Below are positions 2,224 to 64,000 of a DNA stretch of 64,000 nt, piece after piece. The DNA comes from Liolophura sinensis. Taxonomy: Eukaryota > Mollusca > Polyplacophora > Chitonida > Chitonidae. The stretch lies in the NCBI RefSeq assembly GCF_032854445.1, contig NC_088301.1, positions 24,908,402-24,972,401 of the forward strand, in the 5' to 3' direction. The translations under genes and the position numbers were made by a program. Below the pieces are notes generated by a model, which was given only the letters and a program-made list of their open reading frames with translations, had not been told where the DNA came from and did not search any database. Numbering within the stretch: the first letter of the stretch is position 1; every line of letters begins with the position of its first letter.

Positions 2224-2308
2224 CTGTGAAGTCTTCAGTCTTCGTGTAAATGTGATGCAACAGTGACAGTCCCTGGATTTCATGATCCTCATTAGTGCCT
2301 TGTTCAAA
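2224..2308 (-). CDS. C8orf76: C8orf76-like coding exon 4 (genuine copy next to array 2)
   Basis: 85 nt, from acceptor GTTCTCAG|TTTGAAC to donor CACAG|GTAAAA, phase 0 to 1. It encodes FEQGTNEDHEIQGLSLLHHI followed by YTKTEDFT. Only this copy continues into unique exon sequence and a donor, so it is taken as the genuine exon; the copies at higher coordinates repeat just its first part. Confidence 0.82.
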
Positions 2309-5300
2309 CTGAGAACAAACAAACAAAATGTGATGCAATAGTGGCAGCCTCTGGGCTTCATGATCCTCATTAGTGCCTTGTTCAAACTGAGAACAAACAA
2401 ACAAAATGTGATGCAATAGTGGCAGCCTCTGGGCTTCATGATCCTCATTAGTGCCTTGTTCAAACTGAGAACGAACAAACAAAATGTGATGCAATAGTGG
2501 CAGCCTCTGGGCTTCATGATCCTCATTAGTGCCTTGTTCAAACTAAGAACAAACAAACAAAATGTGATGCAATAGTGGCAGCTTCTGGGCTTCATGATCC
2601 TCATTAGTGCCTTGTTCAAACTGAGAACAAACAAACAAAATGTGATGCAATAGTGGCAGCCTCTGGGCTTCATGATCCTCATTAGTGCCTTGTTCAAACT
2701 AAGAAGAGACAAACAAGTTGAGATGTAACTGAGAAGAGACAAACAACATGTGAAGTAACAGTGACAGTCCCTGGGCCTCATGATCCTCAGTAGTGCCTTG
2801 TTCAAACTGAGAACAGACAAACAAGATGTGATGCAAGAGTGACAGTTCCTGGGTTTCATGTTCATCATTAGTGCCTGATAATTATTGTTAATATGGAGTG
2901 GCAGGCCTACAGCCACAGTACTCCAGAATCTGCCAGAAGTAAGTTGAGCAACCCCTCTGCTTTAGCTAACTCTTAAGCTTCAACTCGTTCTCCCTAAAGC
3001 TGATATATCTTTTTTTTTTTTACGTACTGTTTCCTGGAAAATATTTGTCACTGTTGTGACATAATTGACCTACATACTGCATGTTTTAATAGGCAAGGTC
3101 CCACTTTTCATAGCTTTACGCCTCAAAAACTAATCTCGTGTCACGTGACAGCCACTGTGGAGTAAGAAAATGAGGTGATTCAGAACCGGCCTATTCTCTC
3201 AAGGGCCTTTTGGTAATATGTGGTTGACACTGCTCACAAGTGTATTTATGGCATTGAGATCAGTTGCCTTCCACAAATACGACAGACTATAGTTCAATGA
3301 CTTTGCTTGACAAGTGACAAACACATTCATACATGTAAGTTTGTCTCGTTTGTCCGTTGTTAAACCACAAAAATGACCGCTGTAATAATAGCTGATGTAT
3401 TGAAAACATCCTTGAGTACGACTTTGAATCCAATAAAACAAATTTATAAATAGAGCCCTGTCCAACAAATCTGTCTAAACTCTACCTTAATCCACAATGA
3501 TGTCCTGTAAACAATTCTGTGGGAATGCTTTAATTTGTACTAGCGGTATCCCTGAGTTGCAGAGTTATTCACTAACCAGCTGTCTGGCCACACGCACAGC
3601 CTCTGCCTTGTTTCCCACATTCAGATGACATCGACTGAGAGACTCCAGCACGTCACGCCGCATACACATTCCACCTGGGGGAAGTGACTCTGCAATAAGA
3701 AACTGAACATCTTCACTACCTGCTGTTTCATCAGCCCATGTGCCAGTTCACAAAAACGATTTTTGACTTAAATAATGCATCAAAATTTGAAGTGTGATGT
3801 TAACCTTGAATTCTGAACGTGTGATTTTAAACTGGAAACATTTGACATACGTATCAATATTTTAACTTCTTGGGTCATATATAAGTATATATGTATGTAT
3901 GCTTGGGGTTTAATGTCATACTTAATAATTTATAAGTCATATGATGAGGAGTCAATAGCCTACAATGGTATGTAGTGGAACTGTAGCTATTGAATTCTCA
4001 AAATTTGTTCCAGTCAGTGTAAAAGTGATTACAGAAATAATAAGCTTACTTGAATAACTATCATTTACTGTTAGTATTTGTGAATAATGACATAATAATT
4101 GGAGAAAACCATAAAAAAAAGTTTATACGTTTAACAGATCAGTGTGAAGCCTTTCCAATATAATATATTATATTTGATATCTCCACCAAGAGCTTTCTTC
4201 TATCTGCCAGTCATGCCTGTTCAGTGTTCAAGCTCACTTGATTTTGTTTGACATTTTGCCCCAGTCTTTTCATATCTGCCAGTCATGGTTTTTTCAATGT
4301 CCATCTTACCTAATACACGTATTTGTATGTTTTGGTAATTTCCTGAACTTTGCTGTATCTTCCAGTAACATTTGTTCAATATGAATCTTACCTATTATAA
4401 TATATTTTCCTGTTCTTTGTTGTTTTATTTACTTATTTAATTGATAAGCATATGATGTCACACTCATTGATATTTCACTTATATGATAGTGGCCAGCATT
4501 ATGGAGGGATGAAACCAGACAGAGCCTGGAGGAATCCCCCAATCATCCACACATTGCTGGCAAATTTTCTCAGGTACGGCCACATGTTTGATATTTTCTC
4601 TGAGCTTTGCTGTACCTGTTCAGAGTATATCTTACTGTACATAATATAATCTGATATTTCACCTGAGCTCTGCTGTAACTGTTCACAGTGAATCTTACCT
4701 AATACAGTCAGATATTTCACCTGAGCTCTGCTGTAACTGTTCACAGTGAATCTTACCTAATATAGTCTGATATTTCACCTGAGTTTTGCTGCATCTGTTC
4801 ACAGTGGATCTTACCTAATAGTCAGATATTTCACCTGAGCTTTGCCGTATCTGTTCAGAGTGAATCTTACCTAATATAGTCTGATATTTCACCTGAGTTT
4901 TGCCGCATCTGTTCACAGTGGATCTTACCTAATAGTCAGATATTTCACCTGAGCTTTGCCTTATCTGTTCAGAATGAATCTTACCTAATATAGTCTGATA
5001 TTTCACCTGAGCTTTGTCTTATCTGTTCAGAGTGAATCTTACCTAATGTAGCCTGATATTTCACCTGAGCTTTGTTGTATCTGTTAAGCATGAATCTTAC
5101 CTAATATAGTCTGATATTTCTGCCGAGCTTTGTCGTTCGTATCTGTTCAGAGTGAATCTTACCTAATATAGTCTGATATTTCACCTGAGTTTTGCCGCAT
5201 CTGTTCACAGTGGATCTTACCTAATAGTCAGATATTTCACCTGAGCTTTGTCTTATCTGTTCAGAATGAATCTTACCTTATATAGTCTGATATTTCACCT

Positions 5301-7211
5301 GAGCTTTGTCTTATCTGTTCAGAATGAATCTTACCTTATATAGTCTGATATTTGACCTGAGCTTTGTCTTATCTGTTCAGAGTGAATCTTACCTTATATA
5401 GTCAGATATTTCACCTGAGCTCTGCTGTACCTGTTCAGAATGAATCTTACCTAATATAGTCTGATATTTCACCTGAGCTTTGTTGTGTCTGTTCAGAATG
5501 AATCTTACCTTATATAGTCTGATATTTGACCTGAGCTTTGTCTTATCTGTTCAGAATGAATCTTACCTTATATAGTCTGATATTTTACCTGAGCTTTGCC
5601 GTATCTGTTCAGAGTGAATCTTACCTGATATCGTCTGATATTTCCACCGAGTGAGTGAGTGAGTGAGTGCTTGGGGTTTAACGTCGTACTTAACAATTTT
5701 TCAGTCATATGACGACGAAGGAATCTTTAGGGTGCATGTACGTGTAATGCGCCTCCTTGTAGCAGGACGGATTTCCACCGCTCTTTTATTTAGTGCTGCT
5801 ACACTGAGACGACTTACCGAAGGCAAATAAGCTGCCCCGCCGAAGCCATTATACTGATACGGGTCAACCAGTTGTTGCACTATCCCCTTCATGCTGAACG
5901 CCAAGCGAGGAAGTTACAACTTCCTCTTTTAAAGTCTTAGGTGTGACTTGATCAAGGATTGATCCTGGATCTACCGGTCCCGAAGCGGATGCGCTACCAA
6001 CTGTGCTATCCGGGCCGGTTATTTCCACCGAGCTTTGTCGTATCTGTGCAGAGTGAATCTTACCTAATGTAGCCTGATATTTCACCTGAGCTTTATCTTA
6101 TCTGTTCAGAGTGGATCTTACCTAATATAGTCTGATATTTCACCTGAGCTTTGTCTTATCTGTTCAGAATGAATCTTACCTAATGTAGCCTGATATTTCA
6201 CCTGAGCTTTGTCTTATCTGTTCAGAGTGAATCTTACCTAATGTAGCCTGATATTTCACCTGAGCTTTGTTGTATCTGTTCAGCATGAATCTTACCTAAT
6301 ATAGTCTGATATTTCAAGAGAGCTTTGCCATATCTGTTCAGAATGAATCTTACCTAATATAGTCTGATATTTCACCTGAGCTTTGTTGTGTCTGTTCAGA
6401 GTAAATCTTACCTAATATAGTCTGATATTTCACCTGAGCTTTGCCGTATCTGTTCAGAATGAATCTTACCTAATATAGCCTGATATTTCTGCCGAGCTTT
6501 GTCGTATCTGCCGACCATGTAGTGATAATCAGCAGAGAATTTCAGCTGTGTAATTTTACTCTCGTCACTATCAGATTCTGCATCCTCAAACCACTGCAAA
6601 GGTGAAACGTTAAAAACACATAAGACATCATATTATATAATACATATATTTTAATACTTTAATAAATACCATATATTTACATGTGAAGTTGTTAAATGCA
6701 AAACAAAAACAATCTTCAGATGCCAAGAACTCTAGACTGTAATCCAGTAGCGTGTATGTTCAGTCTCTTAGTATTTAGAGGTCATCACATTTCACTCTCA
6801 GAGTGCTTAGCCCATACTGCATTTTCAGCCAGTGTCATAGCTGTATATAGTATTTTACTCTCTGTTTCCATCTTGTACTGTGTATGACTGCTTTAGCTGT
6901 GTAGTATATGAGCAATATTTTTATCTCATATTTAATTTATTTTGGGCACGCATGTACATTCTTGACCATTACACTTTTTGACCAGCAAACTGTTAAACAA
7001 TATTTAGTATAACACAAAAAATAGTTCTCTAGGATCTTGGCAATTTTACAAATTTACGTACCAAAGGAGAACATATCTTGGCATTATACGATGTTAATTT
7101 CTCTTGAGATGCACATCTTTTTTCAGTAAGGAATATTGAGTCATCAAAGTTGAATTCCATGATGAGTCCAGCTGCATGGAATGATAAAATCACAAAATCT
7201 TTAAAACTCAT
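2224..7211 (-). CDS. C8orf76: C8orf76-like TPR-type protein, four coding exons, 3' part not found
   Basis: Exons join as 7211-7062, 6593-6470, 3689-3577 and 2308-2224, with canonical GT-AG borders and matching phases (0, 1, 0, then 1 at the last donor), giving about 157 residues. From memory of human C8orf76, diagnostic matches occur in order: FDDSIF and SYNAKICSP, then WFEDAESDSDE with LKF..D..Y....YDKARQKYQ, then MRRDVLESLSRCHLNVG with an Ala/Val-rich helix, then GTNEDHE..LSLLHHI. The family is poorly studied; its helical hairpins suggest a tetratricopeptide-like scaffold and no enzyme motif is visible. The ATG at 7211 sits next to a good acceptor; an alternative in-frame ATG lies at 7160 beside FNFDDSIF. 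Both large introns carry arrays copied from the gene's own exon edges. Homology is solid; the start and the missing 3' exons are not settled. Confidence 0.85.
2309..2880 (-). repeat. Array 2: tandem copies of the acceptor and 5' end of C8orf76 exon 4
   Basis: Unit 78 bp. Exon-start copies lie at 2386, 2464, 2542, 2620, 2698 and 2806 (minus strand), plus a partial copy near 2870; the genuine exon starts at 2308. Each unit has a TTTGTTTGTT tract, a CAG or TAG acceptor, and then an exon-like segment reading FEQGTNEDHEAQRLPLLHH. Because 78 is divisible by 3, reading continues in frame from one copy to the next as ..HHILFVCSQFEQ... The copies at 2386, 2464 and 2542 reach the genuine exon without a stop. 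From 2620 upward a TAG created in the 2542 acceptor intervenes. The long open frames seen here in other registers are by-products of the repeat. Confidence 0.9.
2881..3576 (-). other. C8orf76-like intron 3, upstream part; nothing coding seen
   Basis: Unique-looking AT-rich intron sequence between exon 3 and array 2. An 89-codon open frame at 3199-3468 has no recognisable domain. Confidence 0.6.
3577..3689 (-). CDS. C8orf76: C8orf76-like coding exon 3
   Basis: 113 nt from acceptor TTATTGCAG|AG to donor CTG|GTTAGT, phase 1 to 0. With the split codon from exon 2 it reads ESLPPGGMCMRRDVLESLSR and continues CHLNVGNKAEAVRVARQL. This lines up with [26 protein letters not shown] of the human protein, confirming that splicing must skip the whole donor array between exons 2 and 3. 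Confidence 0.87.
3893..3958 (-). mobile_element. SINE-2 3'-tail fragment
   Basis: Contains the family's end block GCTTGGGGTTTAATGTCATA, then a match to the CAGTCATATGACGACGA block, with several substitutions, in C8orf76-like intron 2. Confidence 0.6.
4150..4427 (-). repeat. Array 1, old diverged outer copies
   Basis: Two or three degraded copies of the exon 2 edge. They keep the complement of the donor (CATCTTACCTAATA, GAATCTTACC) and also ATCTGCCAGTCATG, which matches a further-upstream part of the genuine exon (ATCTGCCGACCATG) that is absent from the 58-bp core unit. The first duplications therefore seem to have covered more of the exon than the later amplified unit. Confidence 0.6.
4428..4588 (-). 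mobile_element. SINE-1 copy, diverged, inserted in array 1
   Basis: Tail TTTATTTACTTATTTAATTG, then degraded versions of the CACTTATACGACGGCGGCCAG and CCGCAGGTTGCTGGCA blocks. It separates the old outer copies of array 1 from the main block. Confidence 0.65.
4589..6469 (-). repeat. Array 1: tandem copies of the 3' end and splice donor of C8orf76 exon 2
   Basis: Unit 58 bp with about 24 copies besides the genuine edge at 6470. On the minus strand each unit reads CAAAGCTCAGGTGAAATATC, then AGACTATATTAG|GTAAGATT and the CAT..TGAACAGATA link. This is the codon run KARQKYQ..L of exon 2 plus its donor GTAAGA. Many copies have AAG|GTAAGA, at least as good a donor as the real TAG|GTAAGA. The unit is not a multiple of 3, so frames rotate. 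One full SINE-2 (5652-6019) splits the array. Spacing is regular but there are no spacers, so this is not a CRISPR. Confidence 0.92.
5652..6019 (-). mobile_element. SINE-2, near full length, inserted in array 1
   Basis: tRNA-derived head on the minus strand (GGCCCGGATAGCACAGTTGG, A-box-like), a body with GAGGAAGTTGTAACTTCCTC and GCGTTCAGCATGAAGG, and the 3' block TCATATGACTGAAAAATTGT followed by AAGTACGACGTTAAACCCCA and CACTCAC repeats. A 13-bp target duplication TATTTCCACCGAG flanks it (5639-5651 and 6020-6032), so it landed inside an array unit after the array existed. Confidence 0.9.
6470..6593 (-). CDS. C8orf76: C8orf76-like coding exon 2 (genuine copy next to array 1)
   Basis: 124 nt, phase 0 to 1, from acceptor CACCTTTGCAG|TGG to donor TTAG|GTAAGA. 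It encodes WFEDAESDSDESK, then a helix pair ending YDKARQKYQAIL. The human protein has QWFYEETES and a Y.KALQEY helix in the same place. The last 35 or so bases plus the donor are the source of the 58-bp array that fills the downstream intron. Confidence 0.88.
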
Positions 7212-7212
7212 A
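7062..7212 (-). CDS. C8orf76: C8orf76-like coding exon 1
   Basis: The exon begins after the acceptor TTTTCCTTGCAG and ends at the donor G|GTACGT. It encodes about 50 residues ending ..SYNAKICSPL, with FNFDDSIF matching the FEDSVF segment of human C8orf76. The acceptor in front suggests a separate 5' UTR exon upstream at higher coordinates. Start codon choice (7211 or 7160) is open. Confidence 0.75.
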
Positions 7213-10150: not shown

Positions 10151-10154
10151 AGTT

Positions 10155-10170
10155 GGCCCTGAAAAGGGCT
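10155..10170 (-). terminator. Histone mRNA 3' stem-loop
   Basis: On the minus strand AGCCCTTTTCAGGGCC, an almost ideal replication-dependent histone 3' stem-loop (consensus GGYYCTTTTNAGRRCC), lies 44 bases after the last H4 Gly-Gly codon pair. Its presence shows that the H4 copy arose from a cell-cycle-type histone gene by DNA duplication rather than from a polyadenylated message. Confidence 0.85.
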
Positions 10171-10213
10171 GTTGGGTAGTCGTTGCTGGTAGTCCGAGAA
10201 GAGCTGGCGTCGA

Positions 10214-24764: not shown

Positions 24765-27700
24765 AATAAAAAAACAAATAAGCCTCCTCAACTTTCTACA
24801 ACTTTGTATTCCGACTGTAGTTTCGAACGCCTTATTCTTACCAAGGAATGAAGTGTAACAGTTCGACAGTCTTTATATATGGGCGTGTTTCCAGGGAGTA
24901 AATGGTCACTGGAACAACGATGTGATACAGTTCATTATGTACATTAAACATGGCAGCCTTAAATGATGTATAACAATGGACGGTTGATTAATACACAAGT
25001 ATAATTACTGTGGATCTGCGTTGACATGATGAAACACATTTGTGATGAACCGGATCTAAGTAATGCACATTTCCGTTTTATACATACTGGTTTATACAGT
25101 CGGTGTGTTATAACATTACTAAGCTTAACGCAGTTATCCACGACATCTAACATTAAGTCTTCCAAGATACTACACCGCATATGCCGTGTGCAGACGTATA
25201 TATGCTATACACAGCCTTTTTAAAGCTATTTAAAGACATGGATATCATTTCCTCAAACAATCCTATTTGTGTTTTGACCTATATTTTTTTTTTTACAACG
25301 AAAGGTATAAAAACAGAAGAAAAAGTTAATTAATTGGGGTGGTTTGTTATGCCTCCAGCGTAACAATACATGATATGTTCACAGTCATCATTAAAAAAGT
25401 CATAACAACTAATGACTCCTCGTCGTCATATGACTGAAAAGTTGTTCAATAACTAAATCTGTACATAGCTGAGCCTGAACCTTTTTACTTCACTTTACAT
25501 AATCTTAATCCGAAATGAATGTATTCTCAGAAGTACAATTACATGAATAGGGTACATGTAAAAGTTCCCCATAGTCGCCATAACATTTGGGATACACGAT
25601 TTCTATCCCTATAATATGCGGTTACAAAATTGTAATCAAAATTTTTCGAAGCCCCTTATTTCACAACCGTATATAATAATAGACAGAGTAATTTTATGAC
25701 ATATTTTGAACTGGAGGTATATACAGGTAAATCAAAACTTTGTGTTTTTCGATATAGATCGAACAAAGCCTTTCTCTTTGAGACAAAACATGTTTTGTTC
25801 TAGCTACAGTAAAGCGTCCACTATGTTTCATTACTATGACAAACATATTTGGTAACGATTTCAATACTCCTACCTTGGGGCCTCCATGGCTCAGTTGGTT
25901 AGCGCGCTAGCGCAGCGTAATGATCCAGGAGCCTCTCACCAATGCGGTCACTGAGTTCAAGTTCAGCTCTTGCTGGCTTCCTCTCCGGCCGTACGTGGGA
26001 AGGTCTGCCAGCAACCTGCGGATGGTCCCCGCTTTCCTCCCACCATAATGCTGGCCGCCGTCGTGTGAGTGAAATATTCTTGGGTACGGCGTAAAACACC
26101 AATCAATTAAATAAATAAATAAATAAATAAATCAAAGTCACCTGACTTTACTTTTCGTGATGTTAAAATGTAATTCCCATAAATTGCTGTATTTTCGAAA
26201 AACACCCAAGACGCTGTGAAGACCATTTTCACTTTCTGACTTAATTACACTGTCATTTCCTCTATAATAAAATTAGAAGATATGTAAGCACATCATGGTG
26301 GACAGTCATGCCATGGTGCATCTCAGATTAACCAACGATATTGTTATGTATCATGGACTGTTGTAGATCATATGAATGAACGGTGAAAAAAAGTATGGAC
26401 GAGGTAGTCTCCCCCTACCGCACTCCAACATCTTACAGAAAAAGAATACAACATAATTCCTTTTCATAATGCAGGCTTTAATAGGCATGGTCTACGAGTT
26501 GCACACCAGAGTTGGGCTTCACACACAGATTGTACATATTTGTTATCAAGTTAAAGTATGTAACAGTAGCAGGGTGTAGCCTTACTAAATATGGACAGCC
26601 TTTTAAAAATTAGTTACGGTTTGTCTTGCAGTTCAAAACACATATTCTTGTAATACATTACGGGGAGCGGGGCACCGCTTTGGGGTATGGATCGAACTCG
26701 ACTCCAAACTGCTGACACATGTGGTGCGTACTATCGTTCCATCGCCCGGCGATGGCATGAAGCGATGGCAAACGAAGCTTCGGGCCATCACCGGGCGATG
26801 AAACGATGGCCCGGTGGTACAACTCTGACCTTATCCGGCTCCCATATACATACAGGATATTGAGGAAAGTGTTACTTAGTGCCAGACTTCTAGGAATTGT
26901 CGTCAGTGTTGTAGTTTTAGGTCAGGGTGTCACGTATGTCACTGCATACTACATGGTGTTTTGAGTTTCATGTTTCAGGTCAATGTTCTTTGGATTTCTG
27001 CGAACCGGACTAGCTGATACTGTCCCTCACTGTGGAGTAGATGTTGTTAAAGTTCCATGATTTCAATCCAGTGTGCTGCGAATATATATAAACTGGACTG
27101 ATGCTATGAATGTCACTGTGGACTATAGCTAGGTGTTGTTTAAAGTTCCGTGGTTTCAGGCCGGTGTTCTGTAGATATATATGGGCCGCACTGGTAGAGG
27201 TTCAGTGATTTATAACCAAGGCTTGAGACTGTCGGCCATTACTGCAAGAACAGCTGTATTCGTGTGACGTTATGGTTTACATTACTAGACTATAGTCTAT
27301 GTCAAACGAATAGCTATAGACCGTGGTTATTACATCTCCCCCCTTAAGATAAACCATGCATGCTTTATAAGAATTACTTCAACGGTTTGGAGGTTCTTGG
27401 CAACACTGTTCAAGTTAACCAAAATTGTCTTTGTCACAGTACTGTTCATAACACGTGCACCCGATATAAAAACTACTACAGAAACACAAGAGTACAACGT
27501 TACACCTGGGACGCTTATTGATGAAACTCTAAAGGCAAAGAAAATGTACTTCTGTGTCATTACTCTTCTGCATTACGGTCTACAAATCAATATAAGTGGT
27601 ATTAAAAGCCATTGAATCTCCTTGGGCGGCGGACAGGTTACCCAGCAGCTGTGTGGTAGGTGTTTTTAGTATTAAACGCTGAGCTGCTCGGTCCATTCTC

Positions 27701-30700
27701 TGGTGTAGATGGTTCAAAATCTCATCATCAAGGTGTGGATCAATAATAGCTGGTGGTGGTGGTTTCATTAGATCTCATCGATTTCTCCTGTAGTTTCCTC
27801 TTTCAGGGGTAGAAACAATGGACGATCTTGGAGTGTTTCTTCACTGTCTGAACGTGTCTCTCTGACATACCATTGGAATGAGCGTAGGCACCTGGCCGGT
27901 TCAGCACTGCTTTGGCTTTCACCTTGCACTTTGAGATACCCATATGACTTTCATGGATGAACTTGAGCATGTCGCCGTGGAGTTCATGTTGTACAATGAG
28001 TCTTTCTCCGACAAATGACAAATTGTCAATGACATGAATTTCATCCCGGACATTCCAGTATGGACGAGCGTATAAATGGACAGCTGACTTGTGTTATGGC
28101 CAAGTTTCCTGCAAGGTTTGCAATTCTTCAACCATAGACGTAGCTCTCTGGAACATCTCAAGCTTATCTGCAGAAATTGGCAGATGCTTAACGATGCTGT
28201 CAACCATAACATCCATTACGCTCTAGAAAGGGTGTAAGCAACGTGCATTTGTTTTTCAGGGATGTAGAATATGTCAGAATGATAACGTTGTACCTGTAGC
28301 AGCATTCGATGTAATCGGGGCGATGCTTTGCTCAGCGGCTAGCGTAAGATCATTTCCAGTGGTTTGTGGTCATTTTGTACTTAAAATTTTGTTCCATAGA
28401 TGTACTGATGAAATTTCTTGCATGCGAACACGATTTAAAGTAGCTCTTCCTCAATCTGAGCGTAATTAGCTTCGGCCTGGGTAAGAGCTCTTGATGCATA
28501 CGCTACTGGTCCGCCATCTTGCATAATAGTTGCTCCCAGTCCATACTGTGGTGCATCAGCGTGAATTACTGTAACGCGGCTCGGGTCGACGTACTGGAGC
28601 AATGATCTCTTTGTCAAGACATCTTTGATTTGCTGAAATGAAGTATCGTATTCATAGCACCATTGCCAATCGACGTTGTTGCGAAGTAGCTGGCGGAGAG
28701 GAGCGGTAATTTAGCCAAATTGGGGATGAATGCTAACAGAAAGTTCACGATTCCTAGCAGGCGCTGTAAATCTTGTTTGCTCTCCGGTTTTGGTATGTCG
28801 ACAATAGCTTGGAGTTTTTTCCGTGTCCGCCTTGAGGCCTTGGAAACCCGATTTCCAAGGTACTTAACTTCATTGACTCTGAGTTGTAACTTATCAGGGT
28901 TGAATTTCACGTTCTCCTTAGGCGCTGTTTCCATAACCTGACGTAGAATTCTGTAATGTTCATTGTCAAGTGAAGCAGCAATAATCAAGTCATCAAAGAA
29001 TACTTCTACTTTTGATACATGAGCAAAAATCTTTTCGTTGGCCTATGTCTCTCAGTGTGGACTAGGTGATGTTTCAAGTTCCATGGTTTCGGACCAGTGT
29101 ATGGGCAGAAATGTATGGGCTGGACTAATGCTATATCCCTCACTGTTTACTAGGTGTTGTTTCAAGGTCCATGGTTTCAGGCTAGTCTTCTGGGGATACA
29201 TATGAACAGGACTGATGCTGTGTCTCACACTGTGTACTAGGTGATGTTTCAAGGTCTATGGTTTCAGGCCTGTGTTATGTAGATATGTATGGCCCGGACT
29301 AATGCTATATCTCTCACTGTGTACTAGGTGTTGTTTCAAGGTCCATGGTTTCAGGCCAGTGTTCTAGGGATACATATGAAAAGGAACTGATGCTGTGTCT
29401 TTCACTGTGGACTAGGTGTTGTTTCAAGTTCTATGGTTTCAGGCCAGTGTTCTGTAGATATGTATGGACCGGACTAATGCTATATCTCTCACTGTGGACT
29501 AGGTGTTGTTTCAAGGTCCATGGTTTCAGGCCAATGTTCTAGGGATACATATGAAAAGGAACTGATGCTGTGTCTTTCACTGTGGACTAGGTGTTGTTTC
29601 AAGTTTCATGGTTTGAGGCCAGTGTTCTGTAGATATGTATGGGCCTGACTAATGCTATATCTCTCACTGTGGACTAGGTGTTGTTTCAAGTTTTATGGTT
29701 TGAGGCCAGTGTTATGTAGATATGTATGGGCGGGACTAATGCTATATCTCTCACTGTGTATGAGGTGTTGTTTCAAGTTTTATGGTTTGAGGCCAGTGTT
29801 CTGTAGATATGTATGGGCCGGACTAATGCTATATCTCTCACTGTGTACTAGGTGATGTTTCAAGGTCCATGGTTTTAGGCCAGTGTTCTAGGGTTACATA
29901 TGACCAAGACTGATGCTGTGTCTCACACTGTGTACTAGGTGTTGTTTCAAGGCCCATGGTTTGAGGCCGGTGTTCTAGGGATACGTATGAACAGGACTGA
30001 TGCTGTGTCTTTCACTGTGTACTAGGTGTTGTCTCAAGGTCCATGATTTCAGGCCAGTGTTCTAGGGATACATATGAACAGGAACTGATGCTGTGTCTTT
30101 CACTGTGGACTAGGTGTTGTTTCAAGTTCTATGGTTTCAGGCCAGTGTTCTGTAGATATGTATGGACCGGACTAATGCTATATCTCTCACTGTGGATGAG
30201 GTGTTGTTTCAAGTTTTATGGTTTGAGGCCAGTGTTCTGTAGATATGTATGGGCCTGACTAATGCTATATCTCTCACTGTGGACTAGGTGTTGTTTCAAG
30301 TTTTATGGTTTGAGGCCAGTGTTCTGTAGATATGTATGGGCCTGACTAATGCTATATCTCTCACCGTGGACTAGGTGTTGTTTCAAGTTTCATGGTTTGA
30401 AGCCAGTGTTCTGTAGATATGTATGGGCCGGACTAATGCTATATCTCTCACAGTGTACTAGGTGTTGTTTCAAGGTCCATGGTTTGAGGCCTGTGTTCTA
30501 GGGATACGTATGAACAGGACTGATGCTGTGTCTTTCACTGTGTACTAGGTGTTGTCTCAAGGTCCATGATTTCAGGCCAGTGTTCTAGGGATACATATGA
30601 AAAGGAACTGATGCTGTGTCTTTCACTGTGGACTAGGTGTTGTTTCAAGTTCTATGGTTTCAGGCCAGTGTTCTGTAGATATGTATGGACCGGACTAATG

Positions 30701-61300: not shown

Positions 61301-63707
61301 TTAAAAAACGTTATAGTGAATGAGTGAGTCAGTGCTTGGGGGTTTAACGTCGTACTTAACAGTTTTTCAGTCATATGACGACGAAGGTGTCCTTAGAGTG
61401 TATGTAATGTGCCTCCTTGTTGCAGGACGGATTTCCACCGCCTTTTTATCTAGTGCTGCTTCACTGAGACGACTTACCGAAGGCAATCTGCTGGAGGCAT
61501 TATACTGATACGGGTCAACCAGTTGTTGCACTACCCCCTTCATGCTGAACGCCAAGCGAGGAAGTTATAACTTCCTCTTTTTTTAAGGTCTTAGGTGTGA
61601 CCCGACTCAGGATTGCCCCCCCCCCCCCCCCCCACCCCGACGCTCTACCAACTGTGCTATCGGGGCCCGTTAAATTGCGTTATAATGTTGCATTCAACAT
61701 CGGGAGAAGGCCTTCATTCTGCACGTCATTCTTCATTCAAACTTGGAAATCATAATAAGATTTCAATAATTTATTGTACTTTTAATTTGAACTCTTTTAT
61801 ACGTCATGTCATATTTTGTTGTTGAACTTCTTGTCACAGAGTGATTTCATTGTACCCGTTGAAGTCTACCCGATCAAATCGATGAAGTTTCCCTCAGTAT
61901 TATTGAAAGAAAAGTTCAGATCAGGACAAACAGGTGTCATGCTTGGTGTTGTTAGCGACAAGAAGACACAGTCTGCGTACATACACCTAATGCCGCCTCA
62001 CCAATACATGAAAAATTGATACGACATTAAAACCCATTCATGCATTCCAAACAAACAAACAGACACACCAAGTTACAGTGTGCTCTGGAGAATATATCCG
62101 TGATCAAATATCTGTGCGAATGATATTGTAACAATGTCACATCGTCATCCATGCTTCGCAACAATTTTTTTTTAAACTGTATGCGTGTTGTGTTTCAGTG
62201 GATAGCTGCAGACCGTATTTGTCAACGCCCGTGTCCGGATGTAATGACTATATCAACGCCGTATTTCTTCCGGTAAATCATCACAAAATATGACTTCTAC
62301 ATTTACATCGGCCATCCCAATTTACCGATCACTGCCGTCATGTGCGTTGTCAACCGTATGTTGACGGCAAAACGCGATTCCTATTCCTATTAAAATGTGC
62401 ATGCAATAGGCGCAGGCTAAAGGGGTATGTGACGTCATGGTATCCCACGGCAGAATACAGCACGTTACACAAGTTTATTTCTCAAGAGAGAGAGGCACTG
62501 CCCAAACGCCTTAAAGAATTTTTAGCTGTTGTTGTATGAGTTTTGAGCCTTTTTTTTCTTAATGTATTAAACTCGTAGCTAAATCTACTTACGCCCAGGT
62601 TAAAATAAGTGATGAGTTCAAGTCCAGCTCATGCTGGCTTCTTCTCATGTCGCATACGTCTTCTAGCAACCTGCAAATGGTCGTGGGTTTGGCACGATCT
62701 CTGCCTTTTTCCTCCAACCATAATGCTGTCTGCCTTCGTATAAATGGACTGTTCTTGAATTCGGCGTAAAGCATCAATCAAGTAAATAAATAAATTAAAC
62801 TAGTGCCGATGGTAAGCCTAGCTGTTGGTTTCTGTGAAGTAAACATTGTGCACAAGCATTGGCAGTAACACTTGCAGCGTAGCCCTGAGTACTTGTACAT
62901 GCGAGCCCTGCACAGATTAAAGTTTGACTGGTAACACGCTTGATGGACATGTATTTGTCGATCGGTCAATTATGGTAAGGATTTGATATCGTCGTTTGCT
63001 ATGTTATTTGCCATTGGTAGATTTATTTATTTAATGGGTGTTTTACACCGTACCCAAGAATATTTCACTTATACGACGGCGGACCATTGCTAGACGGATT
63101 CCGAAATGGAAAGGAATGAAATGGTTGGATGTCCCCTGGAGTCAAGCTTATATATTCAAGTTTGTATTACTGACGTCATTCTATTGCAGCTGTCAGAGTT
63201 AGTATCTTCTGTTTCAATCCATCCTGTTCTTCGGCGCATTTTGTTATGCTTTGAGTGCTTGAATTGTACCCGATCAAATAGCTTAAGTTTTGCTTAGTAT
63301 CACTGAAAGAAAAGTTCAGTGGGCTGTTTCTCAAAAATGTCTTAACTTTACGGCGGCATACGGTATTTACAACTAAATTCCCTTTCCAAGCCCGGATGAT
63401 GATAAGGTGTAAGATATCTAAAACCGCTTTTCCTCTCTCCTTGTGAAGTATTGCTGAAAATTCTTCTTTCTATTGAAACTATAGAATTTATGACCGATAA
63501 CACGTTTTGTATGTAATAAACAGTTCTAGTTTTTTCACTCTTATTGTTTTTTGTATTTCTGTGTTATAAAAGGGATATAAAAGAAAGAGGGGTTTTATTC
63601 TAACCCAGACGCCTCTACCGAACACGGTCGTCGACTTTTGGCGCCTGGTTCAGGATCACGACGTCAGAACCATCATCATGTTAGACCACGAGAGTACAGG
63701 GGATAAG
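24216..63707 (+). CDS. Receptor-type protein tyrosine phosphatase with EGF-like and F-type-lectin ectodomain; partial at 3' end
   Basis: Twenty-five coding exons give about 1050 residues before the window ends inside the second phosphatase domain. Order: signal peptide (1-26), EGF-like (27-71), F-type lectin (72-209), seven EGF-like modules (210-542), transmembrane helix (about 549-573), basic juxtamembrane, PTP D1 (about 640-930), start of PTP D2. D1 keeps the [25 protein letters not shown] and QT.EQY.F motifs, so it should dephosphorylate phosphotyrosine on the cytoplasmic side; the ectodomain should bind glycan or protein ligands. All ectodomain introns are phase 1, the classic exon-shuffling pattern. 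Bivalves are known for expanded receptor-PTP families of this kind. Exon 17 is one base short, which would break the frame under standard splicing. Exact orthology to a vertebrate PTPR gene cannot be given. Confidence 0.93.
24676..24762. repeat. (TA)n microsatellite
   Basis: Over 35 TA units with one TACA interruption, in RPTP intron 1. Confidence 0.97.
24763..25876 (+). other. RPTP intron 1, first part; SINE-2 scrap only
   Basis: Apart from a SINE-2 3'-end scrap at 25414-25455 (GTCGTCATATGACTGAAAAG) nothing is recognised. Short open frames have no domain. Confidence 0.5.
25877..26132 (+). mobile_element. SINE-1, full-length copy with tRNA head
   Basis: Complete structure: head GGGGCCTCCATGGCTCAGTT with the A box (TGGCTCAGTTGGTTAGCGC), the B-box region (GAGTTCAAGTTC), middle block CAGCAACCTGCGGATGGTC, block CACCATAATGCTGGCCGCCG, 3' block TTGGGTACGGCGTAAAACAC, and an AAAT tail. 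This copy defines the family used throughout the window. The head resembles a tRNA gene but is not one. Confidence 0.92.
26133..26710 (+). other. RPTP intron 1; nothing recognised
   Basis: AT-rich intron sequence without a supported feature. Confidence 0.5.
26715..26825. repeat. GC-rich palindromic segment (CGATGG/CCATCG words)
   Basis: CCATCGCCCGGCGATGG is a 17-base palindrome, followed by GCGATGGC, GGGCCATCACCGGGCGATGA and CGATGGCCCGGTGG. The word CGATGG or its complement occurs about seven times in 90 bp. It is likely a short mobile element or a strong hairpin. Confidence 0.5.
26920..27190 (+). repeat. Array 3, outer copies
   Basis: Three diverged units of the same 87-bp repeat as at 29041-32220 (TTTCAGGTCAATGTTCT, TTTCAATCCAGTGTGCTGCG, TTTCAGGCCGGTGTTCTG). 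They are cut off from the main block by an LTR-element fossil. Confidence 0.8.
27190..29040 (-). mobile_element. Ty3/Gypsy LTR retrotransposon fossil, partial, nested in array 3
   Basis: Minus-strand remnants of a pol region in the expected order: reverse transcriptase C-terminal part (about 28990-28610), RNase H (about 28620-28430), integrase zinc-binding and core start (about 28210-27800). Then follow a polypurine tract (27331-27345) and a piece of 3' LTR. Gag, protease and the 5' LTR are absent. It is broken, with several breaks, and looks moderately old. Array 3 units lie directly on both sides, so it inserted into the array after the array had formed. Confidence 0.85.
29041..32220 (+). 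repeat. Array 3: tandem copies of the acceptor and 5' end of RPTP exon 2
   Basis: Unit 87 bp (29 codons, sometimes 88), about 33 copies. Each has TTTCAGGCCAGTGTTCT, then either GTAGATATGTATGG or AGGGATACATATGA, then ACTAATGC or ACTGATGC, TATATCTCTCACTGTG, and GACTAGGTGTTGTTTCAAG. The genuine exon 2 reads TTTCAG|GCCAGTGTTCTG, AAAACAAGTACGGACCAG, ..CTATGACTGTCACTGTG; identity to a type-A unit is about 42 of 55 bases. In the exon frame the copies hold TAA or TGA, so they could not be used as exons. Two unit types alternate, which suggests higher-order amplification. The last copies (32000-32220) are strongly diverged. Repeated peptide frames such as [12 protein letters not shown] are by-products. 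Confidence 0.9.
32340..32662 (+). repeat. Dispersed repeat copies plus short tandem
   Basis: Contains TATTTACATGAACAGTTAGA and TATCACACTATCGTCG, a family also seen at 58158-58200, 59295-59445 and, reversed, near 44590 and 56635. At 32484-32600 a tandem of about 30 bp (CATTGTGTCACTTTTGCAAC) occurs four times. Confidence 0.65.
32835..32908 (+). mobile_element. SINE-3-like repeat tail
   Basis: AGTATTGCCGAAATGACATTAAGCCATAATCATTC matches (split over blocks) the stretch at 46060-46125 with GCAATACTGTCGATGTGGCG and TTAAGCCATAATCATTCA. It lies directly upstream of RPTP exon 2. Confidence 0.65.
32930..33064 (+). CDS. RPTP exon 2: EGF-like module 1 (source of array 3)
   Basis: 135 nt, phase 1-1, between TTTCAG and C|GTGAGT. 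It encodes [38 protein letters not shown] and DGPSCQR, a laminin/MEGF-type EGF module with eight cysteines. Confidence 0.92.
33065..34000 (+). other. RPTP intron 2; nothing recognised
   Basis: Includes a C-run at 33162-33176 and T-runs near 33310; no gene or clear repeat. Confidence 0.5.
34001..34207 (+). CDS. RPTP exon 3: F-type lectin domain, first half
   Basis: 207 nt, phase 1-1. It encodes [20 protein letters not shown] then [28 protein letters not shown] and [12 protein letters not shown]. The NVAL..TRQSS, AVDG, CTHT and W.V.L motifs are hallmarks of the fucolectin/tachylectin-4 (F-type lectin) fold. Confidence 0.9.
34208..35099 (+). other. RPTP intron 3, first part; short tandem repeat
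   Basis: At 34225-34345 a repeat of about 33 bp containing ACGGAAAGAATTGCA occurs about four times. The rest shows nothing recognisable. Confidence 0.55.
35100..35257. mobile_element. MITE, 158 bp, with 19-bp perfect inverted ends
   Basis: Left end TGCAAAGGGAAGTAAATCT is repeated in inverse at 35239-35257. No coding capacity. The AAAGGGAAGTAA/AAAGGGAGGTAA type of end is common in molluscan DNA; a related GGGAAGTAA motif lies at 47918-47930. Confidence 0.8.
35575..35781 (+). CDS. RPTP exon 4: F-type lectin domain, second half
   Basis: 207 nt, phase 1-1. It encodes [50 protein letters not shown] and [12 protein letters not shown], the end of the lectin fold. Fucose-binding members normally have an R-x-D motif before ERL; here the junction reads NRYRYEGRL, so the Asp is missing and sugar binding may be altered or lost. 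Confidence 0.9.
36174..36269 (+). CDS. RPTP exon 5: EGF-like module 2 (short)
   Basis: 96 nt, phase 1-1, acceptor CCTGACAG, donor G|GTGAAC (weak). It encodes [15 protein letters not shown] then [15 protein letters not shown], shorter than the other EGF exons. Confidence 0.83.
36712..36855 (-). mobile_element. SINE-1 copy, internally deleted
   Basis: ATTTATTTATTTGATTGGTG tail, complement of the TACGGCGTAAAACACC and TATACGACGGCGG blocks, then directly the CCCACGACCATCCGCAGGTT block. Confidence 0.85.
36905..36995 (+). repeat. Direct repeat, left copy (pairs with 38590-38690)
   Basis: TAGACACAAAATACAGTGCC, GTATACAAAAGCTGCTGTGA and CTTTACTGGTCGGCTGTCTT recur at 38590-38690 in the same orientation with about 85 percent identity. 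The 1.6 kb between the copies has no recognisable coding content. Confidence 0.65.
37084..37262 (+). repeat. Minisatellite, 43-44 bp unit, four copies
   Basis: Unit contains ACCAGGCAATGCACATGGTT then ATCCCCATAAGGTATAAGGT. It lies between the two direct repeats in RPTP intron 5. Confidence 0.9.
37263..38500 (+). other. RPTP intron 5, middle; nothing recognised
   Basis: AT-rich; a C-run at 38406-38417. No supported gene. Confidence 0.5.
38503..38580 (+). mobile_element. SINE-2 3'-end fragment
   Basis: GTCGTCGTAATATGACTGAA then AAATTGTTAAGAACGACGTT, AAACCCCAGGCACTCACTCA, matching the end of the full SINE-2 copies. Confidence 0.75.
38590..38690 (+). repeat. Direct repeat, right copy (pairs with 36905-36995)
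   Basis: See the left copy; differences are scattered substitutions and short gaps. Confidence 0.65.
39040..39092. repeat. Minisatellite, 15-bp unit, about 3.5 copies
   Basis: GACACTTACGTTTCT repeated perfectly. The NVSVR peptide frame on the minus strand is a by-product. Confidence 0.93.
39485..39634 (+). CDS. RPTP exon 6: EGF-like module 3
   Basis: 150 nt, phase 1-1, acceptor TTCTTTGACAG, donor G|GTATGT. It encodes [18 protein letters not shown] then [11 protein letters not shown] and [15 protein letters not shown]. Confidence 0.92.
40285..40349. repeat. (TA)n microsatellite
   Basis: About 32 TA units in RPTP intron 6. Confidence 0.97.
40621..40767 (+). CDS. RPTP exon 7: EGF-like module 4
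   Basis: 147 nt, phase 1-1, acceptor CTCTGTTAAG, donor G|GTGAGT. It encodes [20 protein letters not shown] and [15 protein letters not shown] (here RCKAGYSG after GQ). Confidence 0.92.
40768..42778 (+). other. RPTP intron 7, first part; nothing recognised
   Basis: Two kilobases of AT-rich intron with no gene; the 63-65 codon open frames show no domain. Confidence 0.5.
42779..42906. mobile_element. MITE-like element with GGGGCC..TTCATGAAGC ends
   Basis: Starts GGGGCCAGTTTCATGAAGCT and ends with the imperfect complement GCTTCATGAATTCGGCCCC, 128 bp in all, with inner words CTTAGCTAAG. No coding capacity. Confidence 0.7.
43020..43112 (+). mobile_element. SINE-2 3'-end fragment
   Basis: CGAAGTCGTATGACTGAAAA then ATTGTTAAGTACGACGGAAA, with CATTCATT at the end. 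Confidence 0.72.
43158..43379 (+). mobile_element. SINE-1 copy, nearly full length
   Basis: Begins inside the A box (GTTGGTTAGCGCGC), lacks the ATGATCCAGGAGCC section, keeps the B-box region (TCTGAGTTCAAATCC), all body blocks, CTTGAATACGGCGTATAACA and the AAATA tail. Confidence 0.88.
43598..43770 (-). mobile_element. SINE-1 copy, 5' truncated
   Basis: TTTATTTATTTGATTGGTGT tail, then the complement of the 3' and middle blocks to GAGAGGAAGCCAGC. Confidence 0.88.
44185..44337 (+). CDS. RPTP exon 8: EGF-like module 5
   Basis: 153 nt, phase 1-1, acceptor ATTTTTCAG, donor A|GTAAGC. It encodes [31 protein letters not shown] and [13 protein letters not shown]. Confidence 0.93.
44754..44975. mobile_element. 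MITE with about 40-bp inverted ends
   Basis: Left arm GGGATCACGAAACGATCTTA, GACTTAAGTCAAAATTTCAA; right arm complement GGGATCACGAAGCAATCTTA, GACTTTAGTCAAAGTTTCAA. CAGGCCCTGGG occurs at both outer borders and may be the target duplication. No coding capacity. A reversed piece of the ACAGTGTGATGG dispersed repeat lies just upstream at 44588-44645. Confidence 0.78.
44976..45649 (+). other. RPTP intron 8; nothing recognised
   Basis: AT-rich intron sequence, no supported gene or repeat. Confidence 0.5.
45650..45785 (-). mobile_element. SINE-1 copy with internal deletion
   Basis: 3' tail and TATACGACG block, then a jump to GAGAGGCTTCTGGGTCATTG near the tRNA head and CTAGCGTGCTAACC; the body between is gone. 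Confidence 0.82.
45955..46127 (+). mobile_element. SINE-3-like dispersed repeat
   Basis: Blocks TTTATTTGATGTTCTCATTA, CATCGAAGACCACTTATTGT and GATGTGGCGTTAAGCCATAA are shared with 22010-22245 and 32835-32908. A G-run lies before it at 45893-45909. Confidence 0.65.
46181..46336 (+). CDS. RPTP exon 9: EGF-like module 6
   Basis: 156 nt, phase 1-1, acceptor CATCTTTAAG, donor G|GTTTGT. It encodes [31 protein letters not shown] and [14 protein letters not shown]. Confidence 0.9.
46634..46792 (+). CDS. RPTP exon 10: EGF-like module 7
   Basis: 159 nt, phase 1-1, acceptor ATTTTACAG, donor C|GTAAGT. It encodes [31 protein letters not shown] and [16 protein letters not shown]. Confidence 0.93.
46793..47560 (+). 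other. RPTP intron 10; nothing recognised
   Basis: T-rich intron, no supported feature. Confidence 0.5.
47561..47698 (+). CDS. RPTP exon 11: EGF-like module 8
   Basis: 138 nt, phase 1-1, acceptor TTTTCTTCTAG, donor G|GTATCT. It encodes [33 protein letters not shown] and [10 protein letters not shown], the last module before the membrane. Confidence 0.93.
48100..49235 (+). repeat. Array 5: tandem repeat of 79-110 bp in the intron before the transmembrane exon
   Basis: About eleven units; the best-preserved (48600-49050) are about 79 bp with GTTTTTCATCCCTTCCTGAA, AACAGAGGCTGTTTGTTTCT and CCTAAAGGGGAATGATATTT. Outer units are longer and more diverged. The CTTCCTGAAAACAG part resembles an acceptor, but I could not match the unit to a flanking exon, so it is kept apart from arrays 1-4. 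Confidence 0.88.
49325..49418 (+). CDS. RPTP exon 12: transmembrane helix
   Basis: 94 nt, phase 1 to 2, acceptor after a long T tract and GCAG. It encodes [20 protein letters not shown] then [11 protein letters not shown], a single Gly/Val-rich membrane-spanning helix, followed by Arg. Confidence 0.93.
49419..50733 (+). other. RPTP intron 12; nothing recognised
   Basis: No gene or clear repeat; a C-rich stretch near 50330-50390 and CCCCCCACCCCC at 50515-50526. Confidence 0.5.
50734..50840 (+). CDS. RPTP exon 13: juxtamembrane, basic
   Basis: 107 nt, phase 2 to 1. It encodes [16 protein letters not shown], then [19 protein letters not shown]. The Arg cluster after the helix is a stop-transfer signal. 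Confidence 0.88.
50873..51003 (+). repeat. Minisatellite, 44-bp unit, three copies
   Basis: GATGAAAACATAAAATGAAG then TAGGCGTATAAGTGTTTAAG repeated almost perfectly, just after exon 13. Confidence 0.95.
51443..51594 (+). CDS. RPTP exon 14: juxtamembrane to PTP D1 lead-in
   Basis: 152 nt, phase 1 to 0, acceptor TTTATTGCCAG, donor GCG|GTAAAC. It encodes [20 protein letters not shown] and the [20 protein letters not shown] helix that precedes the phosphatase core. YVNQ and TYEN could be tyrosine motifs, which is inference. Confidence 0.9.
52024..52111 (+). CDS. RPTP exon 15: PTP D1 start
   Basis: 88 nt, the usual size of this exon in receptor PTPs, phase 0 to 1. It encodes [20 protein letters not shown] then KSRYKDLVA, the pTyr-recognition loop region (canonical KNRY; here KSRY). 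Confidence 0.93.
52112..53518 (+). other. RPTP intron 15; short tandem only
   Basis: An AAATAAATC-type low-complexity run at 53262-53345; otherwise no recognised feature. Confidence 0.55.
53519..53595 (+). CDS. RPTP exon 16: PTP D1, DYINASYI segment
   Basis: 77 nt, again the usual size, phase 1 to 0, acceptor TTTTTTTCAG, donor GAC|GTAGAT. It encodes [20 protein letters not shown] then NASYID. Confidence 0.93.
53700..54800 (+). repeat. Array 6: tandem repeat of about 55-58 bp
   Basis: Roughly 17 units of CTTATTTAAGCTTACCTTAT then CTTAGCCCTTATTCTACGCC and TATACCCTGTCTTTCCC, interrupted by unique sequence at 54200-54400. On the minus strand each unit contains AAGATAAG|GTAAGC, a donor-like string, but no matching exon was found. 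The [12 protein letters not shown] peptide frame is a by-product. Confidence 0.9.
54990..55025 (+). CDS. RPTP exon 17: short PTP D1 exon, 36 nt where 37 is expected
   Basis: Between TTCCCTTCAG and G|GTAAAT. The first half reads GYKKPK in the frame set by exon 16. The second half reads EYIASQ in the frame needed by exon 18, so one base is missing around AAAGAATAC. The sister exons are 88, 77, 98 and 136 nt, as usual for receptor PTPs, where this exon is 37 nt. Possible causes: a real frameshift, an assembly error, or use of non-canonical intron borders shifted by one base, which would give [14 protein letters not shown]. Confidence 0.85.
55375..55545 (+). mobile_element. SINE related to SINE-1 by its 3' end only
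   Basis: Ends TTCTTGAGTATGGCGTTAAA, like SINE-1, after ACCGCCGTCATATCAGTGAC. The 5' part (GTCTTCGAATCCAGCTCTCG, CCGGACACTCCGGTCCCC) differs from SINE-1. It looks like a separate family sharing a tail. Confidence 0.6.
55640..55737 (+). CDS. RPTP exon 18: PTP D1
   Basis: 98 nt, the usual size, phase 1 to 0, acceptor GTCTCCACAG, donor AAA|GTAAAT. It encodes [20 protein letters not shown] then [13 protein letters not shown]. Confidence 0.94.
55907..56303 (+). other. Coding-like segments inside RPTP intron 18, unidentified
   Basis: Two stretches read like protein: [20 protein letters not shown] then [15 protein letters not shown] and a stop (to about 56045), and [20 protein letters not shown] then [23 protein letters not shown] and a stop (56168-56297). 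Both are more GC-rich than the surrounding intron and lie in the gene's orientation. No family is recognised and there is no start codon. They may be exons of an inserted or overlapping gene, or chance. Confidence 0.3.
56469..56594 (+). CDS. RPTP exon 19: PTP D1
   Basis: 126 nt, phase 0-0. It encodes [20 protein letters not shown] then [23 protein letters not shown] is a conserved receptor-PTP motif. Confidence 0.94.
57207..57358 (+). CDS. RPTP exon 20: PTP D1, WPD loop
   Basis: 152 nt, phase 0 to 2. It encodes [20 protein letters not shown] and later LPGPIVVHC. The general-acid Asp of WPD is present. Confidence 0.96.
57359..57991 (+). other. RPTP intron 20; nothing recognised
   Basis: No supported feature; the plus open frame ending in exon 21 merely runs into the intron. 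Confidence 0.5.
57992..58127 (+). CDS. RPTP exon 21: PTP D1, catalytic signature
   Basis: 136 nt, the usual size, phase 2 to 0. With the codon split from exon 20 it completes [12 protein letters not shown] (catalytic Cys and Arg present), then [19 protein letters not shown] and [11 protein letters not shown], the Q-loop. D1 is thus catalytically complete apart from the exon 17 question. Confidence 0.97.
58158..58200 (+). repeat. Fragment of the ACATGAACAGTTAGAAT dispersed repeat
   Basis: TATTTACATGAACAGTTAGA matches 32350-32372 and 59305-59330. Confidence 0.6.
58330..58500 (+). repeat. Dispersed repeat, intact relative of 8866-9014
   Basis: Blocks AGCTTATATA, CGATTCCGGCATAATGCTTA and CGATGCATGCGCGTTAGATT match the reverse complement of 8866-9014. 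The GC-rich stretch that follows to about 58970 may belong to the same element. Confidence 0.65.
59295..59445 (+). repeat. Dispersed repeat, longest copy
   Basis: From AGCATTTACATGAACAGTTA to CAGTTATCACACTGTCGTCG. The far end appears reversed at 44588-44645 and 56635-56695 (GCGACGACAGTGTG). Confidence 0.6.
59785..59935 (+). mobile_element. SINE-1 copy, 5' truncated
   Basis: TGGCCGTACGTGTGAAGGTC, CAGCAGCCTTTGGATGGTTG, CTCTGCCCGGTTTCCTCCCA, then TTCTTGAGTACGGCGTAAAA and an AAATAA tail; the CGCCGTCGTATAAG section is lost. Confidence 0.87.
60114..60263 (+). CDS. RPTP exon 22: end of PTP D1
   Basis: 150 nt, phase 0-0. It encodes [20 protein letters not shown] then [20 protein letters not shown] and FE. 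EQY.F completes the QT..QY.F motif. Confidence 0.95.
60630..60729 (+). CDS. RPTP exon 23: D1-D2 linker
   Basis: 100 nt, phase 0 to 1. It encodes [20 protein letters not shown] then [17 protein letters not shown] opens the second phosphatase domain. Confidence 0.92.
60730..61317 (+). other. RPTP intron 23, first part; nothing recognised
   Basis: Includes the short inverted words CATGTGTTTCCATGGCA and TGGAAACACATG (60921-61026), which could form a hairpin; no gene. Confidence 0.5.
61318..61675 (-). mobile_element. SINE-2, near full length
   Basis: tRNA-like head on the minus strand (GGGCCCCGATAGCACAGTTG), a G/C homopolymer in place of part of the head-body joint, then the same body as 5652-6019 and TCATATGACTGAAAAACTGT at the 3' end. 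CGTTATA at both sides (61309-61315, 61678-61684) may be the target duplication. Confidence 0.88.
62199..62272 (+). CDS. RPTP exon 24: PTP D2
   Basis: 74 nt, phase 1 to 0, acceptor TTGTGTTTCAG, donor CCG|GTAAAT. It encodes [20 protein letters not shown] then AVFLP, matching the [12 protein letters not shown] segment of receptor-PTP D2 domains. Confidence 0.9.
62610..62800 (+). mobile_element. SINE-1 copy, diverged, 5' truncated
   Basis: GTGATGAGTTCAAGTCCAGC, then AGCAACCTGCAAATGGTCGT, CCATAATGCTGTCTGCCTTC, TTCTTGAATTCGGCGTAAAG and an AAATAAAT tail. Confidence 0.83.
63018..63095 (-). mobile_element. SINE-1 3' tail
   Basis: GATTTATTTATTTAATGGGT tail, ACACCGTACCCAAGAATATT, TCACTTATACGACGGCGGAC. 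Confidence 0.8.
63245..63320 (+). repeat. Partial duplicate of 61859-61925
   Basis: ACCCGATCAAATAGCTTAAG and ACTGAAAGAAAAGTTCAG match TACCCGATCAAATCGATGAAG (split) and ATTGAAAGAAAAGTTCAG in RPTP intron 23. The older copy lies in an open frame (61816-62019) with no known domain. Confidence 0.55.
63573..63707 (+). CDS. RPTP exon 25: PTP D2 (source of array 4)
   Basis: 135 nt, phase 0-0, acceptor TTATAAAAG, donor AAG|GTTGGT. It encodes [20 protein letters not shown] then [20 protein letters not shown] and STGDK, typical D2. The gene continues past the window; whether D2 is active cannot be seen. Confidence 0.93.
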
Positions 63708-64000
63708 GTTGGTAGATTGCATGTCATGTGTACAAGCTGGGTTGAACACATTACAATTAGATCCTGTGAATACAAGAGATAAAGTAGGTAGACTGTCAAA
63801 CCGACAGTGTCAGGCTGAGCCAGTACAGAGGATAAGGTAAGGAGGCTGTCATACCGACAGCCTGTTCTGATCGTGGTAGACTGAGTGAATACAGAGCATA
63901 AGGTAAAGAGACTGTCATACCGACAAACCATTCGGATCGTGTTAGGCTGAGCCAAATTAGAGGATAAGGTAAAGAGACGGCCAAACCAAGAAGCCATTCT
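63708..64000 (+). repeat. Array 4: tandem copies of the 3' end and donor of RPTP exon 25, running off the window
   Basis: Donor-like sites recur at 63784 (ATAAA|GTAGGT), 63837 (ATAAG|GTAAGG), 63903 (ATAAG|GTAAAG) and 63969 (ATAAG|GTAAAG); the later spacing is 66 bp. Each is preceded by a relative of the exon end: AACCATTCGGATCGTGTTAG, GCTGAGCCAAATTAGAGGAT against the exon's GAACCATCATCATGTTAGAC, CACGAGAGTACAGGGGAT. It is followed by a relative of the intron start (AGAGACTGTCAT against TAGATTGCATGTCAT). Several copies have better donors than the genuine GTTGGT. Confidence 0.85.

Follow-up and report, generated by a model that had tools for sequence, protein, structure and literature searches.

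Intronic minisatellite arrays assembled from exon edges in two unrelated genes of the chiton Liolophura sinensis

Can a minisatellite take its repeat unit from a splice junction and multiply in the adjoining intron, and which of the many copied splice sites would the host gene then use? This question is raised by a stretch of 64,000 nucleotides of the Liolophura sinensis assembly (GCF_032854445.1, contig NC_088301.1, positions 24,908,402 to 24,972,401 of the forward strand), denoted here as the window, and by four intronic tandem arrays in it, termed A1 to A4. An initial annotation had proposed that each array is built from a junction of its own host gene, two from donors and two from acceptors, in two unrelated genes; the alignments and the comparison with random windows described below bear this out. 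The bivalve host that it assumed has to be replaced by a chiton. A1 to A4 are very probably minisatellites of the little-studied type known from amphioxus as 'mirages', seeded across an exon edge, with the exon-proximal copy kept by selection and used in splicing.

Exon edges are deduced throughout from homology together with splice signals, and loci outside the window carry numbers with the prefix L. Gene 1, on the minus strand, hosts A1 and A2. Its three exons, when joined, yield an unbroken match to the Pfam family DUF5588 (profile positions 34-135, 5.5e-16), a family that we take to be C8orf76(-like). The features of this gene are the following:

2224..2308 (-): exon of gene 1, reading FEQGTNEDHEIQGLSLLHHIYTKTEDFT; its acceptor edge is copied in A1, of which it forms the terminal copy
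2309..2878 (-): A1, on the intron side of this exon; 78-bp units of 20 bp intron end and 58 bp exon start
3587..3690 (-): intervening exon of gene 1, reading ESLPPGGMCMRRDVLESLSRCHLNVGNKAEAVRVARQL, edges approximate
4589..6469 (-): A2, split by an insertion; 58-bp units of about 44 bp exon end and 14 bp intron start
5652..6020 (no strand assigned): interspersed element within A2, with a relative at 61315-61672 (82% identical)
6470..6593 (-): exon of gene 1, reading ..WFEDAESDSDESKITQLKFSADYHYMVGRYDKARQKYQAILG, with a Pfam DUF5588 match; its donor edge is copied in A2

A1 comprises seven copies besides the genuine one, and all six copies that cover the acceptor AG retain it. The genuine copy is identical to the consensus in its intronic part (20/20 bases) and differs from it at 6 of 57 exonic sites. 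An open frame on the minus strand (2204-2542) takes in the genuine exon and three more copies, and the 78-bp unit is in frame; choice of an upstream acceptor would accordingly add repeats of 26 residues to the protein. In A2, 26 copies are present besides the genuine one, the donor GT is kept in 25/25 covering copies, and the genuine intronic part agrees with the consensus at 12 of 13 bases. One interior copy shares 40 of 41 bases with the genuine copy. The interspersed element is flanked on both sides by the same 12 bp (5640-5651 and 6021-6032) and entered A2 after the array had formed.

Two further reading frames were noted around these genes. A histone-fold frame at 10127-10687 (-), beside a LINE-like region, matches CENP-T, TAF and core histone weakly in Pfam and is, by its looks, presumably a decayed H4 copy. 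About 26 kb to the left of the window, a candidate exon (L012:3575-3742, minus strand) has a WD40-like reading, which we assume to be EIPR1-like.

Gene 2, on the plus strand, encodes a receptor tyrosine phosphatase, for which 25 exons are listed, and hosts A3 and A4. EGF-like, F5/8-type-C, transmembrane and tyrosine-phosphatase parts are distinguished; Pfam confirms the F5/8-type-C and phosphatase parts, and the others were recognized by eye. A tandem paralogue, gene 3, follows it. The relevant features are:

26939..27193 (+): detached part of A3 with three copies, severed by an insert of about 1.8 kb
29043..32098 (+): A3; 87-bp units of 24 bp intron end and 63 bp exon start
32930..33064 (+): EGF-like exon of gene 2, with a paralogous exon at L008:4595-4726 (70%); its acceptor edge is copied in A3
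63570..63707 (+), start approximate: phosphatase-domain exon of gene 2 (Pfam Y_phosphatase, 9e-12); its donor edge is copied in A4
63757..64000 (+), continuing to L004:283: A4; 66-bp units of about 40 bp exon end and 26 bp intron start
L008:4595-L010:3879: gene 3, tandem paralogue following gene 2

With 38 copies besides the genuine one, the detached part included, A3 is organized in higher-order periods of 174 and 436. An AG is present in 32 of the 37 covering copies (19 CAG, 12 GAG and one TAG) and lost in five. The genuine edge resembles the consensus less closely than in A1, with 9/11 intronic and 42/60 exonic bases identical, and a gap of about 0.8 kb separates the last copy of the array from the genuine exon beyond it. 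Within the insert that splits this array (27200-29040), an open reading frame at 28614-28988 (-) resembles, by eye, a piece of a reverse transcriptase. A4 has nine copies besides the genuine one and keeps the donor GT in 8/8 covering copies; in its intronic part, only five of ten aligned bases are identical between genuine copy and consensus.

Gene 3 matches 18 of 19 gene-2 exon peptides; that of the A4 exon is among them, and its gene-3 equivalent (L010:3757-3879) aligns through to the same final residue. No array is found near this counterpart. The exon of gene 3 that corresponds to the A3 exon has one degenerate copy upstream, so A3 perhaps began before genes 2 and 3 parted and may derive from an older duplicate of its exon instead of the present junction.

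In A1, A2 and A4, the genuine junction is the terminal copy and the array is confined to the intron side, exactly as the initial annotation had described. For each array, the genuine edge was scored against 5000 random 90-bp windows drawn from the 164-kb neighbourhood. None of these windows reached the score of the genuine edge for A1 and A2 (0/5000 each), and a single one did so for A3 and for A4 (1/5000 each). For A4, a first short local alignment had scored 29, barely above the maximum of 27 obtained in 200 mononucleotide shuffles. The other arrays of the window at 37083, 48562, 50869 and 53789/54414 were rejected as edge arrays, since no outside copy overlaps a listed exon. Six-frame Pfam matches over long stretches were not accepted either, because they contain stop codons.

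The arrays are also specific to their loci. In a search of the whole assembly (609,464,459 bases in 632 contigs) that skips very common words and scores best candidates only, the A1, A2, A3 and A4 stretches match their home loci and nothing else, a result that excludes only close relatives visible to such a search. With regard to the check for satellites suggested along with the initial annotation, the units of A1 to A4 are, as far as this search sees, not found at many unlinked places, as those of a dispersed satellite would be.

The initial annotation knew of no named class for such structures; however, one exists. Two reports on amphioxus describe 'mirages', tandem repeats across exon-intron boundaries, in Adh3, in the globins BflGb6 and BflGb9, in troponin C and, as imperfect duplications, in PGBD5; the repeats occur at either edge, AG or GT persists in many copies, and splicing seems to be normal according to Adh3 data and globin RT-PCR (PMC3087553; PMC3902484). 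In intron 7 of human F7, a variable number of 37-bp repeats carries donors, only the most upstream of which is normally used, a behavior reportedly explained by oriented scanning (PMC6627357). Four to seven repeats occur there, and their number is reported to correlate with the mRNA level (PMC3492156). Models in which introns are gained when AG/GT segments duplicate in tandem (Rogers; Gao and Lynch, cited in PMC3087553) likewise start from the duplication of a splice-competent segment that yields extra sites. Earthworm metallothionein repeats, considered as members of the same class, are intronic but, in the accessible part of their description, not presented as boundary-spanning, and were set aside.

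The chiton arrays share with mirages the boundary-spanning unit (37-101 bp here), the occurrence at both edge types, and the many copies bearing a splice signal. Another trait of the class is that interior copies are homogenised and terminal ones are exempt; the observations on this point are the 6 of 57 exonic differences of the genuine A1 copy and the interior A2 copy that matches the genuine one at 40 of 41 bases. The chiton arrays differ from mirages in phylum and in copy number, which reaches 38. For the amphioxus mirages, length and somatic instability are reported and globin splicing was checked by RT-PCR, whereas the chiton arrays are known from DNA, from one haploid assembly in which paralogous loci were compared. 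F7 is one gene with repeats on the donor side; in the chiton, donors and acceptors of several genes are concerned. The intron-gain models produce a new intron; in the chiton, by contrast, the exon is apparently unchanged and it is the old intron that grows. A unit spanning a junction, which defines mirages anatomically, is seen at the deduced boundaries of A1-A4 and of the loci L009, L020, L051, L052, L058 and L065 introduced below, and the chiton arrays thus appear to be mirages by anatomy; what they add is taxonomic reach and apparent frequency. In the open-access literature, mirages are on record for a few lancelet genes and a comparable structure for one human gene, and in this literature, which leaves most subscription papers outside its scope, no report of mirage-type arrays in molluscs was found. 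Their presence in several unrelated chiton genes extends mirages to molluscs and suggests that the class is perhaps widespread wherever minisatellites abound.

We infer a mode of origin and a mode of splice-site choice as follows. A short segment of the exon-intron border would be duplicated in tandem and multiplied by slippage and unequal exchange, presumably like other minisatellites of this repeat-rich genome. Copies would persist on the intron side only, the one side on which the old exon-proximal site continues to give an unaltered mRNA. The spliceosome would then take the exon-proximal copy, i.e. the most upstream donor in donor arrays and the last acceptor in acceptor arrays. As the sites of A1, A2 and similar arrays are near-identical, the choice would depend on position and exon definition and not on strength; in A3 and A4, site strength could still contribute. 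Since the A1 unit contains only 20 bp of intron end, any branch site near its genuine acceptor would have to reside in the copy before it, within the part derived from the exon. A scan for yUnAy in the stretch given before this acceptor returned no match, and matches are present in the stretches given for L009, L020 and L052; the scan settles nothing. Runs of near-identical donors or acceptors within one intron offer a direct test of position versus scanning versus strength.

Recurrence outside the window supports the proposed origin across exon edges. The survey covered 28 phosphatase-exon loci with 27 further exons within them, 20 plus 5 kinase-exon loci, and gene 3, amounting to 200 exon edges and 40 arrays. 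The genome holds at least 151 Y_phosphatase matches, many of them clustered on contigs C7, C3 and C15. Of the 151 matches, only 30 were covered as loci; L018 and L019, which form one 891-aa open frame without introns, were excluded from the tally together with their four extra segments. The further exons were detected with gene-2 peptides only, and the phosphatase loci include tandem paralogues and are for this reason not fully independent. For the kinases, 34 short-open-frame matches were chosen by eye from 138 before their sequence was seen, and 25 were examined, 20 with flanks of 1.1 kb and five with flanks of 0.4 kb. Six edge-spanning arrays were encountered:

L009:1428-1933: acceptor array in gene 3, 101-bp units; splice dinucleotide in 4/4 covering copies; intronic part of the genuine copy identical to the consensus at 70/70 bases
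L020: acceptor array, 66-bp units; dinucleotide in 7/7; intronic part identical at 39/39 bases
L051: acceptor array at a kinase exon, 37-bp units; dinucleotide in 8/9; 10/11 aligned exonic bases identical
L052: acceptor array at a kinase exon, 80-bp units; dinucleotide in 6/7
L058: donor array at a kinase exon, 67-bp units; dinucleotide in 5/6
L065: donor array at a kinase exon, 65-bp units; dinucleotide in 5/6; 19/20 aligned exonic bases identical

Each of these six arrays ends in the genuine copy and occupies the intron side of the edge. Together with the window, A2, A4, L058 and L065 are donor arrays, and A1, A3, L009, L020, L051 and L052 are acceptor arrays. The rate outside the window is 6/200 edges or 3.0% (95% CI 1.1-6.4%). 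L065 is counted although its TRF array overlaps the domain match by only 5 bp and fails the strict overlap rule. L021 was left out of the count, as its array starts inside the intron beside the exon and copies no exonic sequence.

Is this more than chance, as the initial annotation held? The answer depends on the unit of counting. The neighbourhood is dense in minisatellites: 31 arrays occupy 15.8 kb, or 9.6%, of a 164-kb region that comprises the window and its surroundings, and four 10-kb stretches elsewhere contain eight such arrays. One of the minisatellites found, a 42-bp array of about 16 copies (L007:9899 to L006:580), has long open frames (..LCQGKFTLCWKQPT..) that are either coding or due to chance. 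Two or more copies nearby were recorded for 84/450 random intronic 70-bp windows and for only 5/98 exon edges, where one of the five is a paralogous match and A4 falls below the cutoff. By coverage, edges thus hold no more arrays than random intron windows do, and to this extent the arrays of the window are less surprising than was claimed. An edge, however, can only be the terminal copy of an array, which makes seeding events the fairer unit. Uniform re-seeding of the 40 units with an 8-bp side rule gave 2.19 expected edge arrays versus six observed (P=0.016), a 2.7-fold over-representation that lends the earlier claim partial support, with the reservation that P rises to 0.058 (five or more) without L065. 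A 12-bp side rule gave 1.79 expected, with P=0.005 for six or more and P=0.025 for five or more. In genes 1-3, 5/16 arrays span an edge versus 0.82 expected, though four of these five are A1 to A4, i.e. the finding itself.

Such numbers speak against purely random seeding, which predicts fewer edge arrays than were counted, a point that also weighs against the explanation preferred here. They suggest, rather than establish, that exon borders start tandem duplication more often than other parts of introns, by transcription, R-loops or sequence. The excess, however, comes from the kinase loci (four of 20 loci; 4 observed versus 0.52 expected), with 1 versus 1.48 for the phosphatases and 1 versus 0.19 for gene 3, and per base the edges are no richer than random intron windows. 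We regard such a junction-biased birth as possible but doubtful. The same caution applies to the broader notion that minisatellites of this chiton arise preferentially at exon borders and that a few percent of all edges carry an array of spare sites, which we put forward tentatively. If true, thousands of arrays would exist, and the genome would represent a natural experiment on positional choice among near-identical sites.

Other explanations concern retention instead of birth. The arrays might be retained for an effect of splice-site number on splicing efficiency, and thereby on expression, as reported for F7 intron 7, where repeat number follows mRNA level; splice dinucleotides intact in most covering copies would fit. 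Homogenisation alone, however, also keeps sites intact, A3 has lost the AG in some copies and carries GAG in others, and in gene 3 the A4 counterpart lacks an array and the A3 counterpart has the one degenerate copy only, so retention for function is unlikely. Even less probable is that some copies serve as alternative acceptors extending the protein, with A1 as a partly coding repeat of 26 codons. The 78-bp unit and the open frame of A1 agree with this, but two A1 copies contain an in-frame stop (TTCTTAG), the units of A2 (58 bp) and L009 (101 bp) are out of frame, stops occur in A3 copies, and the DUF5588 profile matches without the repeats. An artefact of assembly, or a dispersed satellite with only a resemblance to exon edges, has the smallest chance of all. 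Tandem arrays are hard to assemble, and the reported 14X HiFi coverage with 8.3-kb reads is modest (PMC11068029); the published chiton assembly also uses Omni-C data, has gene models for 28,010 protein-coding genes and stems from an animal with a heterozygosity of about 1.2%. Yet a collapsed or looped assembly would not be expected to show copies that vary among themselves or the insertions that interrupt A2 and A3, and close matches in the 609-Mb assembly are confined to the home loci as far as a search skipping common words reveals. Seeding across the exon edge, with the exon-proximal copy kept by selection, remains by far the preferred reading of A1 to A4.

The origin of such an array can be approached most closely in gene 3. 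The L009 exon (ACEKGTYGLNCSGRCG..) is preceded by four extra, near-identical 101-bp copies. A sister exon at L008:9945-L009:100, produced by a duplication inside gene 3, exists as a single unrepeated copy that is 98% identical over 102 bp, and the genome search with the L009 array returned the home locus and this sister exon. With its near-identical copies beside an unrepeated sister exon, the array looks young; expansion after the intragenic duplication would be the simplest reading, and loss in the sister is possible as well. The L009 array and its unarrayed sister exon represent a before-and-after pair for the origin of an array.
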